The notes under the pieces are model-generated. The model ran no database searches and was not told where the DNA came from. It saw only the letters and a program-made list of their open reading frames with translations. Source: a virus. Taken from it: a stretch of DNA of 20,122 nucleotides. The DNA is taken from positions 1 to 20,122 of IMG/VR virus record IMGVR_UViG_3300006810_000558. One strand, 5' to 3'. How positions within the stretch are numbered: position 1 is the first letter of the stretch; every line of letters begins with the position of its first letter. Shown one piece after another: positions 1-12,992 of this stretch. The translations under genes and the position numbers were made by a program.

Positions 1-156
1 GATCTAATTTCTGCTTGATCGGCTGTAATGGCACCAGTTCCACTATTGTAATTTACACCAGTACTACCACTAAAGAAAGATCTAATTTCTGCTTGATCGG
101 CTGTAATGGCACCAGTTCCACTATTATAATTTACACCAGTACTACCACTAAATAAT
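1..156 (-). repeat. Two tandem 78-bp units in the tail fibre gene
   Basis: Units 1-78 and 79-156 are nearly identical (one internal substitution, plus a few bases at the far end). Each encodes a 26-residue unit with the core FFSGSTGVNYNSGTGAITAD. A third, more diverged relative follows at about 157-234 (GLFSGSTG). The array may continue beyond the left edge. Near-identity at the DNA level suggests recent duplication or ongoing recombination within the fibre gene. Confidence 0.85.
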
Positions 157-2030
157 CCTCTTACGTCTGCATTGCTAAGTTCTATATCATCTGCATTAAC
201 AGTAATACCATAACCGCCGGCCGCATTAACTGTTACTGCTCCTGATGAACCACCACCTGTTAAACCGTTACCTGCTGTTACGGCTGTGATGTCCCCTACT
301 GGAACATCCTGAGAAATAGTAATTGTATTACCACTATGTGTAACATCAACGCCTGTACCACCAGATATTGTTATTGTTTCACCACTTGTTACTGATTCTG
401 TACCAGCACTATCTGTTGTGAATCCCCAACTGCTATAGTTGTCTGCTGAAGTAGATATAACACCTGTGCCACTATTGTATCCTATTAAACCTGTACCACT
501 TATGTGGGCTCTTGTTTCACTTGCACTAGGACCTGTATATGTGAACACACCATTAGAATAACTTAATGAACCATCACCGCCGGCGTCAGAAACACTAAAT
601 GCATTTCTAATTGCTGTTATGTTTCCATCTATTGTAATAACATTACTTGATTCTGAAGCAGTTGTATAAGTGCCACCATCTATACTTCTGATATAATATC
701 TAATTGTTCCGTTACCAAGTGTTTCACTGCCTTGTAAAATATCAACACCTGTACCACCTACATCAACACTTTCAATTGTTCCTGAAAATCCTGTTTGTGA
801 TAGCACACCGTTTGTAGCACTCAATCCTGAACCTGCCATTGCTGCTACTAAATCTGAAATAGTTTCTTTCTTTGAACTATTATCAGTTGCATCTATAATT
901 GCTATGCTGTCTGCACTTACATCAACTGCCGCTGATGTTAGTTCATTTAAATCTAATGCAAAAGTTCTACTTGCTGAAATATCACCGCCGCCGCTTAGAC
1001 CATTACCTGCTGTTAAAGTTACACTAGTGTGATCTATGTGTTCGTTTGCTACAAAATTTTGTAACGCATCGTGATCAATTGCTACATCACTTGCACTTGT
1101 AATTTGTCCTTGAGCATTTACTGTAAATTGTGCAACATCGTTGCTTGTACCATATGTACCTGCACTTACGCCTGAATTTGTAATACTTATAGCACCACTA
1201 CTTAATGTAATACCTGTACTGCCACTAAAGTGTGCTCTAGTTTCACTTGCACTTGGTCCTGTATATGTAATAACACCTGTACTATTATTGTAAGCAAGTG
1301 ATCCATCTCCGCCTGCATCTGTTACACTAAGGTGAGCTCTAACTTGTGTAGGCGCGGCTGAAATTCTTGCATTTGCTTCTGCTTGATTAGGTCCAGTGTA
1401 TGTAAATACTCCTGCTGAGTAAGTAAAACTTCCGTCTCCACCTGCATCACTGGCACTAAAGAAACCTTCTACATCTGCTTCTGTAAGCATATTATAGTCT
1501 GTAGAACCATCATTACTAAACTGCCATCTATCTGTTCCTTCGTCCCATTTTAAATATACATTTGCAGTAGTGTGTTCTACTTGTATTTTTGCGTCTTGAT
1601 CAGAACCACCTTTGTTAAGATAGATATTATTATCTGTTACTATAGAATCAGTTTGAGTTACAGTATCAATATTCGTTGCTGTTATATTTCCAGCAAAATT
1701 AACATTACCAGGTAATGTTGCACCTGATAAATCTACCGTACCTGTGAATGTTTTATCGCCTGTAATAGTTTGCGTACCAGTTGTTCTTACAACTGTACTA
1801 TCAACTGCTATATCATCTGCGTTAGCAGTAATACCATCACCGCCTACAACATTTAATGTTCTTGTAGATGCTATTGTGCCTCCACCAGTTAGACCATCTC
1901 CTGCTGTAATACTTACAGAAGTATGATTAACGTGTTCGTTTGCGTCAAAATTTTGTAAGGCATCGTGATTAATATTACCATCGTCTGAACTAATTTCGCC
2001 TAAACTAATGTTTATACCCGTACCGGTGTA
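1..2030 (-). CDS. Tail fibre protein, downstream part (frame-shifted, 3' end beyond window)
   Basis: Translating the minus strand from 2030 down to 1 gives an unbroken frame of about 676 codons that leaves the window. It continues the repeat-rich protein that starts at 3004, but lies one base out of register with it. The residues are Gly/Ser/Thr/Asn-rich with recurring modules: DAGGDGS...FTYTGPS, RAHFSG-type turns, ITAGNGLTGGG, and ALQNFxANEHxxHTSV. Such modules are typical of long fibres in marine T4-like phages, which are trimeric beta-structured proteins used for host recognition. The frame has no start of its own, because a stop lies at 2040-2042 just upstream. It is therefore best read as the second part of one gene. 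Identity as a fibre is inferred from composition, repeats and position after gp23. The receptor-binding tip lies outside the window. Confidence 0.75.
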
Positions 2031-2290
2031 AAGTGAGCTCTAACGTTACTTGCTGAATTGTCTATTCTTTCTTGTACTTCTGCAAGACTTGGACCAGTGT
2101 AAGTAAATACACCTGTTGTATTGTTATAACTAAATGAGCCATCGCCACCTGCATCTACATGACTAAGATGTGCTCTTACTTGTGTAGGTGCCGCCGCTAT
2201 CCTGGCGTTTGCTTCTGCTTGGCTAGGGCCAGTATATGTAAATACACCAGAAACATTACTGTATGTTAAACTTCCGTCTCCACCTGTATC
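525..2290 (-). repeat. Dispersed DAGGDGS/FTYTGPS fibre modules
   Basis: At least five copies of a module of about 21-23 codons occur, at roughly 525-587, 1251-1319, 1386-1448, 2087-2155 and 2221-2290. Each reads D(A/T)GGDGS, then a short aromatic/Asn stretch, then (F/I)TYTGP. Most are followed by a helical A/E-rich stretch and RAHF/RAHL. Copies differ at the DNA level, so they are older than the 78-bp tandem units. They form the repeating framework of the fibre shaft. Confidence 0.8.
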
Positions 2291-3004
2291 AGTTACACTT
2301 AAATTTGTTATTTGATCTGAGGTAATACTAATTGGTTGATTAGCCGCCGCTGTTAAACGTCCTTGTTCATCAACTGTAAAATTACTTACTGTAGAAGCAT
2401 TGGCTCCATAACTTGCCGCTGTAACGGCCGTATTGTCTAAATTTATTGTAGGTGTTGCAGACTCTCCACTTGTTACGGTAGAAGTTAATCCTGTTCCACC
2501 TGTAATTGTTGCAACATAATTACCTGTTGTATCTGTGCCTAACTCTACTGCATTAGCAGTAATAGTAACATTTAAAGAGGGAGAAGATGTATTTGCATTT
2601 AATCCTAAAGAAACACTTCCTGATACATCACCTGTTAATGTTAATGTCCTATCATTTGTTAGAGCACCTGCTTCGTTGGCAACACCTGTAAATATATTAC
2701 CAGTTAAGGTGGCACCAGAGTCAACCACCAAACTACCTGAATTAGGTATTAAAATATTACTTGTAATTGTTTGGCTTGAAATTAAATTTGTACCAGCAAA
2801 GGTTAAATTAGCAAAATCACTTCCGCTTTTAATTGCTAATACCGAAGTACCTGCATCGCCGTCAGCATTAATTACAAATACATTTGATTCTACACGGTTT
2901 ACTTCTTGTGTGGATTCTATTTGGGTAACATTACCCTCAATCGTTAGTCTACCCTTGACTACTAATTCTTCATCAACACCGATATAAGTACGTTTTGTTG
3001 CCAT
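2012..3004 (-). CDS. Tail fibre protein, N-terminal part (reads to a premature stop)
   Basis: This 330-residue frame starts with MATKRTYIGVDEELVVKGRL. The ATG follows an AGGAA ribosome site and lies about 37 nt below a GATAAATA late promoter. The N-terminal 100 residues should be the virion-attachment region. After that come low-complexity beta repeats, including two copies of a DxGGDGS...FTYTGPS module (residues about 239-262 and 284-307) joined by a short helical AEANARI/AEVQERI stretch. The frame stops at 2012-2014 straight after RAHF, where the same repeats carry on in the -1 frame to the left edge. The full gene would exceed 1000 residues. Either a base is missing from the sequence (TTT for TTTT at 2030-2032 would restore the frame) or the gene is really broken. 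Host attachment is the expected role, by analogy with repetitive fibres of marine T4-like phages. Confidence 0.75.
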   Translation of the reverse strand: MATKRTYIGVDEELVVKGRLTIEGNVTQIESTQEVNRVESNVFVINADGDAGTSVLAIKSGSDFANLTFAGTNLISSQTITSNILIPNSGSLVVDSGATLTGNIFTGVANEAGALTNDRTLTLTGDVSGSVSLGLNANTSSPSLNVTITANAVELGTDTTGNYVATITGGTGLTSTVTSGESATPTINLDNTAVTAASYGANASTVSNFTVDEQGRLTAAANQPISITSDQITNLSVTDTGGDGSLTYSNVSGVFTYTGPSQAEANARIAAAPTQVRAHLSHVDAGGDGSFSYNNTTGVFTYTGPSLAEVQERIDNSASNVRAHFTPVRV

Positions 3005-3127: not shown

Positions 3128-4270
3128 TTACTGGAATGTTACACCTGACAATGTGACTGCGTCAACATAGTCTGCCGCATTACCAAGAGATGAAGCAGTA
3201 TTTGTAAGTTCTTTATAACCGTATCTGGTCATGAAACTTACTACTGGTTCAAATGTGCTTGGGTCCATTACTGGGCCTGTGCTCATTAATGGAATGTACG
3301 GACAATAGAATGCTGGAGCATCAGTTTCGCTTGATCCTTTGTAACCAACAAGAACTTTAGTTCCGTCAGCCGCATAGTTATCAGCAAAAACTTTGATTGA
3401 TCCGTTTAGTGTACCAACAAATTTAGTATTTGTAGGTGCTTCAAAAGATCCTTCAGTTGTTCTAGCAAATGTTGAAGTACTTGCAGATTGTAGTATTGTC
3501 AATGCTTCTGGAGAAACAACAATATAGTTACCAGCACCACGTCTTGTTCTAGCCGCGATTCTGTTAGCCGCTCTGTTAATCTCGATTGCTAATAGAGCAT
3601 GTCTATCACCAATATATGCTGGAGTACCTGTTAGGGAACCACCGAAGTTCAAAGTTGTACCTGCACCTGCAAGAGTTCTTAGTGAACCGATAATTTCTTG
3701 GTCGATTTCAACTACGATTTCTTGTGCTAATGCCTGCATAATTTCTGCTTCGACGTCTACGCCATGCATTGATTCTGCGTCTTGAGCCGCCTCAAAAGTC
3801 CATCTAGCACTTAGACGTCTTGTCTTTGCTTCAACGGTTTCTTTTAAGATTTGAATGCTCATTTTTCTTCCTGCACTACCTTCAGCAGTTGCCGTAGCAT
3901 CTGGAGATCCTGCATATGAAGAAGCAAGTTTAAATGGGCTTAGAGCCTCATCACCTGCTGTTGCTCCACCACCAGTTTCCGCATAACGTACTCTTAATGT
4001 GTGGATTTGGCCCACTGGACCACTCATTGGTTGTACACCAACAAGTTCGTTAGCGATAACAGAAGGCATAACCCTTCTAATTAACGGTAACATTACTTTG
4101 TTTAAAGTTGCGACTGAACCTGCACCTGTGGCACCTGCTGTTGCGGCCTCTGACAAATGTCTTTTTGTATTCTCGAGGACAACATCTAAAGAAGATTTTC
4201 TGTTTCCAGAAAGACCTTCTAGTAAAGCGTCTTTAGTTGCTGACCAGTTGCTTTCAAATAAGTCTGCCAT
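3128..4270 (-). CDS. 23: Major capsid protein gp23
   Basis: This is the hexameric shell subunit of the T4-type head. Residues about 58-100, with LPLIRRVMPSVIANELVG and QPMSGPVGQIHTLRVRY, are the hallmark gp23 segment used in marine T4-like surveys. At 380 residues it is clearly shorter than T4 gp23 (521) and than cyanophage versions as I remember them. Residues 39-43 read LSEAA, which fits the T4 prohead protease rule (L/I)-x-E with cleavage before A. Removal of a 41-residue propeptide is therefore predicted, done by the gp21 encoded two genes upstream. An AGGAG ribosome site precedes the ATG. It is the last gene of the gp20-gp23 operon and is followed by a strong terminator. Identity is firm; the cleavage site is inferred. 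Confidence 0.96.
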   Translation of the reverse strand: MADLFESNWSATKDALLEGLSGNRKSSLDVVLENTKRHLSEAATAGATGAGSVATLNKVMLPLIRRVMPSVIANELVGVQPMSGPVGQIHTLRVRYAETGGGATAGDEALSPFKLASSYAGSPDATATAEGSAGRKMSIQILKETVEAKTRRLSARWTFEAAQDAESMHGVDVEAEIMQALAQEIVVEIDQEIIGSLRTLAGAGTTLNFGGSLTGTPAYIGDRHALLAIEINRAANRIAARTRRGAGNYIVVSPEALTILQSASTSTFARTTEGSFEAPTNTKFVGTLNGSIKVFADNYAADGTKVLVGYKGSSETDAPAFYCPYIPLMSTGPVMDPSTFEPVVSFMTRYGYKELTNTASSLGNAADYVDAVTLSGVTFQ

Positions 4271-4282
4271 TTCTAACTCCTA

Positions 4283-5398
4283 TTAATTTATTGAAAGTCC
4301 GGCTAATTTACGAATCATGTCAATTTCTACAACATCATTCGCACTTTTGTCATCGGCTTCTGTTATTACAGTTGCCTTATTACCAGTATGTTCACTAGTA
4401 ATTGATTCTGACAATGTCTTCTTCACTCTTGGTGTTTCTCCATCTAAAACTGAAGGCAAGTACTTGTTAAAGGACTCTTCCAGTTTTTCAGTTTTAACAC
4501 TTTCAAGTAAATCTGACATAATTTCTTTCTTTTCTTTACCCAATGGGGCCATCAATTCGTTTAGTTTTTCCTTTCTTTCGAAACGATCTTCTGAAACTCT
4601 TAACTTAGATTCAGTTAATTTAACTGCTTCTTCTTTCTTAGCAATTTCTTGCTTAGATTCGTTAAGTTGATTTTCCAACTGAGTTACCTGTTTTTGTATT
4701 TTCTTGATTTCTTTTGCTTCATTCAAATAGCTCACGCCATATTCATTTGCAAATGCTTCAAAAATTCTTCGACCGAAGTCATTTTCACGTGCTTTAGTGA
4801 TATCATCACGGAAAGATTTAACTTCATTAGTAATAACGTTATTAACAACGCTTTCGACCTTGTCTGCCGCTTTCTTAATGAAATCTTGTTTGGCTTCTGC
4901 TAATTGCTTCTTGCCTTCTCTTACCATTTTGACTTTCTGTTCTACAAGACCTTTTTTGTCTTCGTGGAACTCTGATAGTTCATTAGCAAGTTGCTCTGCA
5001 ACAAAATTATCTAATTTAGTTACATGTTCACTTGTTCTTGCTCTATCTGCTCTAAGTTCCTTAACTTCTTTAGCAACCATTTCAGTTACAAATTTGTCAA
5101 GTACTTTGGAGTGCTCACTAATTGCTTTCGTGTATTTTACTCGATCGTTCGCAAGGGCTTGTTTTTCTGATACAATTTCAGAAATTTCTGCTTCTACTTT
5201 TTCAGAAATAAAGTTGTCAACTGCTTCTACTATTTGACCTTTGTCATGTTCGTATCGCTGTGCAAACTCTTCTCTAAGTTCCGCAGTAAGTTCTTCTCTT
5301 GCTTCAGAAATTTTACCTTCCCATGCTTCTTGAAGAGCAGATTTAACGTCTTCTGTTAATTCTGCGTTCTCAAGTAGTTCTGTAAAATTCACTGCCAT
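4283..5398 (-). CDS. 22: Prohead scaffolding core protein gp22
   Basis: This protein forms the internal core on which the gp23 shell assembles, and in T4 it is degraded by gp21 before DNA packaging. Its 371 residues are Lys/Glu-rich and almost wholly helical. A long coiled coil covers residues about 50-290, with repeated blocks of the type DNF(I/V)xE...VE in residues 60-200. The N-terminus MAVNFTELLENAELTEDVK is typical of marine gp22. Potential gp21 sites (L-x-E before A) occur at LQE/A (residues 22-25) and LNE/A (about residue 225). An AGGAG site precedes the ATG. The order gp21-gp22-gp23 is exactly that of T4. Length is greater than T4 gp22 (269 aa). Confidence 0.93.
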   Translation of the reverse strand: MAVNFTELLENAELTEDVKSALQEAWEGKISEAREELTAELREEFAQRYEHDKGQIVEAVDNFISEKVEAEISEIVSEKQALANDRVKYTKAISEHSKVLDKFVTEMVAKEVKELRADRARTSEHVTKLDNFVAEQLANELSEFHEDKKGLVEQKVKMVREGKKQLAEAKQDFIKKAADKVESVVNNVITNEVKSFRDDITKARENDFGRRIFEAFANEYGVSYLNEAKEIKKIQKQVTQLENQLNESKQEIAKKEEAVKLTESKLRVSEDRFERKEKLNELMAPLGKEKKEIMSDLLESVKTEKLEESFNKYLPSVLDGETPRVKKTLSESITSEHTGNKATVITEADDKSANDVVEIDMIRKLAGLSIN

Positions 5399-12349: not shown

Positions 12350-12576
12350 CGACAGCCGAACCTGAAGAAATAGTTCAGTTCCTAGAGAAGTTAAAAACAG
12401 ACAGATCGGCACTTTATAAGAACATTGTAGAATTAACAATATACAGTGAAGGCAAACTTTCTTATACTGAAGCATGGAATATGTCTACTGAAGAAAGGTC
12501 GTTATTTATAGAAGTGTTAAGCAACTACACCAAAGCAAAAAACGGCGATAGTTCTGAAAGCAACGAATACTTATAA
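12337..12576 (+). CDS. -1 frame C-terminal extension of the gp26-like protein
   Basis: This reads in the -1 frame from the slippery site to TAA at 12574-12576. It gives 79 residues starting HGFLATAEPEEIVQFLEKLK and ending in an Asp/Ser/Glu-rich tail. The composition is that of a real protein (amphipathic helices, acidic). The frame is open from 12292 but holds no ATG, GTG or TTG before codon 49 of the extension, and no ribosome site, so independent initiation is unlikely. The stop overlaps the ATG of the GIY-YIG gene by one base, which is the coupling seen for genuine gene ends in this genome. By analogy with lambda gpGT, the extension would contact the tape measure encoded next door. Confidence 0.7.
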   Translation, partial: HGFLATAEPEEIVQFLEKLKTDRSALYKNIVELTIYSEGKLSYTEAWNMSTEERSLFIEVLSNYTKAKNGDSSESNEYL

Positions 12577-12992
12577 TGTGGTTATATAAACAAAAAGAAG
12601 TCACAGAATTACCAGAAGACTGTGAAGCATTTGTATATCTTATCACAAACAATACCAACAATAAAAAATATGTAGGTAAAAAACTTGCAAAGTTTAAAAC
12701 CACAAAACCCCCTTTAAAAGGCAAAAAGAACAAACGACGTGGTTATAAAGAATCAGACTGGCGTACTTATTGGGGTAGTAATGATTACTTAAAAGAAGAT
12801 GTAATTAAGTTAGGTGAAGACAATTTTACAAGAGAAATATTATATTTTTGTCCAAGTAGAGGTGTTGCCAGTTACTTAGAAGCCAAAGAACAATTTGATA
12901 GAGAAGTACTATTATCAGACGACTACTACAACGGAATTATCAACGTTAGAGTAGGCGGTTCAAAAATCCTTAAAGAAGCATTGTCAGACTGA
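12576..12992 (+). CDS. GIY-YIG fold protein, putative endonuclease
   Basis: This 138-residue protein starts with MWLYKQKEVTELPEDCEAFV. The first half of a GIY-YIG nuclease is visible: VYLI (residues 20-23) stands for GIY and KYVGKK (31-36) for YIG. It is followed by a Lys-rich loop, an SDWRTYWGSND segment and a helical C-terminal part (SYLEAKEQFDREVLL). GIY-YIG proteins include homing and repair nucleases. The basic loop suggests DNA or RNA binding. It overlaps the preceding frameshift product by one base and so belongs to that operon. From memory, similar small proteins accompany tail genes in marine T4-likes, so it may be a resident gene rather than a mobile one. The catalytic Arg and Glu were not assigned with certainty. 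Confidence 0.65.
   Translation: MWLYKQKEVTELPEDCEAFVYLITNNTNNKKYVGKKLAKFKTTKPPLKGKKNKRRGYKESDWRTYWGSNDYLKEDVIKLGEDNFTREILYFCPSRGVASYLEAKEQFDREVLLSDDYYNGIINVRVGGSKILKEALSD

Follow-up and report, generated by a model that had tools for sequence, protein, structure and literature searches.

The closest described counterparts of the gene studied here are found in IMG/VR contigs of uncultured T4-like phages (L002, L003, L153, L127, and L181; loci are denoted by L numbers). In these relatives, the gene lies at the same site after the major capsid gene and encodes a protein with a similar N-terminus (MATKRTYI...EGNVTQ) and the same repeat modules. Their gene is one open frame wherever the relevant point is covered, whereas the gene in our window, which is the whole analyzed stretch of 20,122 bases, is interrupted once. 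The window is a complete virus record but probably a fragment. It contains T4-like genes for a major capsid protein, a portal, an SbcD-like nuclease, a late sigma factor, and others, and a megablast search with its full sequence found no match among 50,697 phage records. The repeat-rich gene, encoded on the minus strand, immediately follows the major capsid gene. The main features are as follows.

Whole record IMGVR_UViG_3300006810_000558, 20,122 bases, from an uncultured virus.
3128..4270, minus strand: major capsid protein (MCP) gene, PHROG 138 with E 7e-98, used as the anchor for same-position genes in relatives.
2012..3004, minus strand: N-terminal part of the fibre-like structural gene, 330 aa with a TAA at 2014-2012, 83% identical to L002, matching PHROG 356.
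3..2033, minus strand: C-terminal remainder of this gene, read in the -1 frame, which stays open to the edge of the contig; homologous to an internal part of the one L002 frame, with BppL_N.
1..156, minus strand: tandem pair of 78-nt repeats, 96% identical, where the contig ends.

The best-ranked matches of the capsid protein (window 3128-4270) among cultured phages are jumbo phages, namely the PA5oct/MIJ3 group (about 67%), Sinorhizobium phage Phosso (63%), and GAP32/CBB (61%). Elsewhere in the window, the best PHROG of a 138-aa gene (12576-12992) is named 'NAD synthetase', yet the gene also matches three homing endonuclease families, and the PHROG name may be a misnomer.

The repeat-rich protein has limited likeness to known families. 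PHROG 356, 'minor tail protein', matches residues 54-321 (E 2.7e-6). This is a weak match to the repeats, and the C-terminal frame of the window has no match to any PHROG. The Pfam family PF18338 (BppL_N, lower baseplate protein N-terminal domain) was detected in the -1 frame (E 1.7e-6), where a 25-residue motif scores above the curated cut-off, as it also does in L181. The window shares only this short motif with BppL_N, and no receptor-binding domain was identified. Partial matches were also obtained to five phage records, whose annotations read tail fibre or head decoration. L127 and L181, two complete relatives, have a conserved C-terminal region in common (TATKAQYADLAENY...), which a 330-aa product would lack, and the L181 C-terminal part resembles hypothetical proteins from phages of Campylobacter, Agrobacterium, Sinorhizobium, and Pseudomonas. 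These matches give modest support to a tail fibre identity, and 'fibre-like structural protein' is the safer name.

In the zero frame (3004-2012, minus strand), the gene ends after 330 aa at the TAA (2014-2012), and repeats of this kind go on in the -1 frame, which reaches base 3 with 676 codons and no stop. The remaining two frames contain 55 and 82 stops over the same stretch, so the -1 continuation is not due to chance. Homology to L002 spans both sides of the break, and L002 is one open frame across it. The stop counts and this homology confirm the initial annotation in its basic observation that the N-terminal frame stops at 2012-2014 and the repeats go on in the -1 frame. The net deficit is one base: among 33 distinct contexts in relatives, RAHx and GTG[I/V] are two residues apart in 29 and ten residues apart in four. 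The window has an isolated one-base deficit in a fibre-like gene that is expected to form a single frame exceeding 1000 codons.

We next consider the same-position gene in relatives. A capsid-protein search gave 80 MCP loci, and the next gene was checked in 76 of them, leaving out L135, L155, L160, and L175, in which the match extends to, or almost to, the end of the contig. In 22 of the 76, fewer than 250 bases lie downstream; among the 54 left, L178 and L196 carry another gene and then end. In all 52 loci kept, the gene next to the capsid gene has an N-terminus of this kind, and the number of independent relatives is smaller than 52 because some are likely near-duplicates (L181, L183, L184, and L185 are all 1159 aa; L195 and L198 are both 1081 aa). 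The gene is complete in 22 of the 52 (1069-1390 aa) and open to the contig end in 30. It extends past residue 330 in 40, none of which is interrupted, and the break is not present in any relative found to cover the point. L002, the closest relative found (83% identity over residues 1-324), stays in one frame across the equivalent point and remains open to the end of its contig (623 aa), as does L003 (894 aa). Three exact-pattern scans of viral contigs found no near-identical contig crossing the break, and in L122 and L123, which have the identical capsid protein, the fibre ends before residue 330, at 304 and 123 aa. A separate gene below 2012 in related phages, which had been named as the observation that would overturn the frameshift, was looked for and excluded, as the relatives encode one continuous protein.

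We also surveyed the repeat genes of the relatives for frame breaks in general. Hits were present on 116 locus-strands, of which 47 were single-segment, and close-lying pairs were picked from the other 69. Among these, 15 boundaries in 14 loci were inspected, and they read as gene ends, most with a fresh downstream start.

The position of the slip can be narrowed by comparison with the relatives. The relevant features are these.

About 2013..2029, minus strand: interval of the one-base frame slip, bounded by the 17 bases that are in frame in L153 and by GTGI, read in the -1 frame.
2015..2039, minus strand: 25 nt shared by both frames, flanked by the stop of the -1 frame (2042-2040) and that of the zero frame (2014-2012), without an X_XXY_YYZ heptamer.
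1935..2080, minus strand: module unlike L002 between well-conserved flanks (mosaic boundary), with the slip inside it.

The initial annotation had located the missing base in TTT (2032-2030) and mended the protein to AHFYTGTGI. The identical 17 bases, AGAGCTCACTTTACACC, occur in L153 in the unshifted frame, where they give RAHFTP, with GTGI following, and the GTGI of the window is read in the -1 frame. The residue after RAHF in distinct contexts of the relatives is Ser (41), Thr (8), or Gln (1), and tyrosine follows RAHx in none of 125 distinct RAH contexts. Because the window agrees with L153 for codons after TTT, the slip appears to lie downstream of TTT, at about 2026-2013, and judging from this comparison, the window stays in frame for a minimum of one or two codons past TTT. 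The placement at TTT was probably wrong. The interval proposed earlier, 2012-2042, does contain the slip, although just downstream of TTT rather than at it.

The downstream frame bears the marks of coding sequence. Compared with L002, it has a dN of 0.041, a dS of 0.466, and a dN/dS of 0.089 (263 codons, with the first 33 codons after the break, a diverged module with dN/dS 0.40 and dS 1.6, left out). The corresponding values of the upstream frame are 0.100, 0.525, and 0.191 (300 codons). By these ratios, the downstream part was under selection as coding sequence in this frame until very recently, or still is. Because its dN/dS is as low as 0.09, the break would be either very recent or not real.

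Several biological explanations of the break were weighed against these data. In programmed -1 ribosomal frameshifting, a minor full-length product would be made beside a short major one, and the 25-nt overlap of the frames and the open, constrained -1 frame are compatible with it. However, the 2039-2015 overlap contains no X_XXY_YYZ slippery heptamer, and the earlier remark that CAC TTT ACA is no canonical slippery site was right. Four in-phase heptamers are present upstream (2789, 2576, 2444, and 2306), but a shift there would meet a stop at or before 2042-2040. No stable fold was found 3' of the slip (2026-1940), where the stability is below the shuffle mean (z +0.91, folded without pseudoknots), and the relatives encode the protein in one frame without a shift (0 of 40 interrupted). 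We regard such recoding as very unlikely. A fibre turned on and off by slippage, altering host range as the initial annotation had suggested, is more improbable still. All that speaks for it is that the gene is fibre-like and out of frame. TTT is not a hypermutable tract, and no run of six or more A/T or five or more G/C occurs in 1-3004; the TTT itself appears to be in the correct frame by comparison with L153; and no off state is seen among the 40 relatives passing residue 330. A homopolymer-switched phage fibre was not apparent among the papers listed by our literature search. This sequence offers no substrate for programmed frameshifting or for slippage-type phase variation. The least probable explanation is that two separate genes are present, the second starting near ATG 1490 or upstream of it. 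An ORF caller would list 3-1490 as an ORF of its own, but in L002 the site matching ATG 1490 (NMLTESDVEG) lies inside one frame, the -1 frame of the window is also open over the 180 codons before the ATG and constrained beyond the first 33 of them, and L002, L003, L092, and L100 all contradict a division. It is also highly improbable that the short form is real and maintained, with a truncated 330-aa version beside the full-length one in the population, for example as a short-fibre variant arising by mutation or repeat-module recombination.

A technical cause of the break is most likely, and we lean toward a consensus or assembly error. Reads of this repeat-rich, mosaic gene from co-occurring strains may have been merged, resulting in the one-base deficit, in a stretch where contigs of the group often end; the virus itself would then most likely make the full-length protein. 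The constrained downstream frame (dN/dS 0.089) and the absence of interruption in the 40 relatives are consistent with an error, as are the location of the break in a module unlike L002 between conserved flanks and the equal or near-equal lengths of the other genes common to the window and its sister contig. In addition, the contig ends in the 96% identical tandem pair, and 30 of the 52 related contigs end inside the gene, although short contigs may end anywhere. One report describes short-read viral assembly as confounded by microdiversity and genomic islands, and indel errors in long reads as shifting reading frames (PMC6487183). The position of the slip speaks against an error, as it is not in a homopolymer. 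Homopolymers are the usual site of long-read errors. The main competitor, to which we assign a smaller but considerable probability, is a genuine recent one-base deletion, in the virus or in the strain dominating the consensus, that cuts the fibre protein at 330 aa. The sequence as given reads this way, and the break does not coincide with a long homopolymer. The record is clean apart from this break, given the rarity of frame breaks elsewhere. However, the truncated form was found in none of the 40 relatives passing the point, and the downstream part has not decayed (0 stops in 676 codons, dN/dS 0.09), so a null allele would have to be very young. Such an allele would leave the same traces as an error, and we favor the error because losing a protein of this kind should cost fitness. 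If the deletion is real, the particles would have neither the repeat shaft nor the conserved C-terminal region, and they would be either defective or reliant on other fibres or complementation. In a control for frame breaks, one candidate was found in 398 gene instances (about 404 kb) from 82 loci, most of which were picked by capsid similarity, which favors intact capsid genes. This rarity gives a low prior for an error and also for a real mutation; neither is a common event, and it was its odd look that led to the finding being selected. Of the causes listed earlier (error, natural truncation, and phase variation), an error and a one-off truncation are possible, and phase variation lacks a substrate. 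The frameshift call is true for the record, its placement was slightly wrong, its cause is ordinary, and the host-range switch is without support.

The sole other candidate break in the control is in L155 (1516-2641), where a relative of the window gene at 4283-5398 appears to be split over two frames. That window gene is scaffold-like and is located between the capsid and protease genes.

The break matters mainly for annotation: in place of the single repeat protein of over 1000 residues encoded by the phage group, gene callers will report two or three short genes. Of greater biological use are the related genes, which suggest that the fibre evolves by module swapping. The capsid proteins of L122 and L123 are 100% identical to that of the window, and their fibre N-termini (window 2725-3004) are 88% (L122) and 60% (L123, as L204) identical to it. 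Going by these two loci, the fibre gene may undergo fast turnover or swapping beside an unchanged capsid gene.
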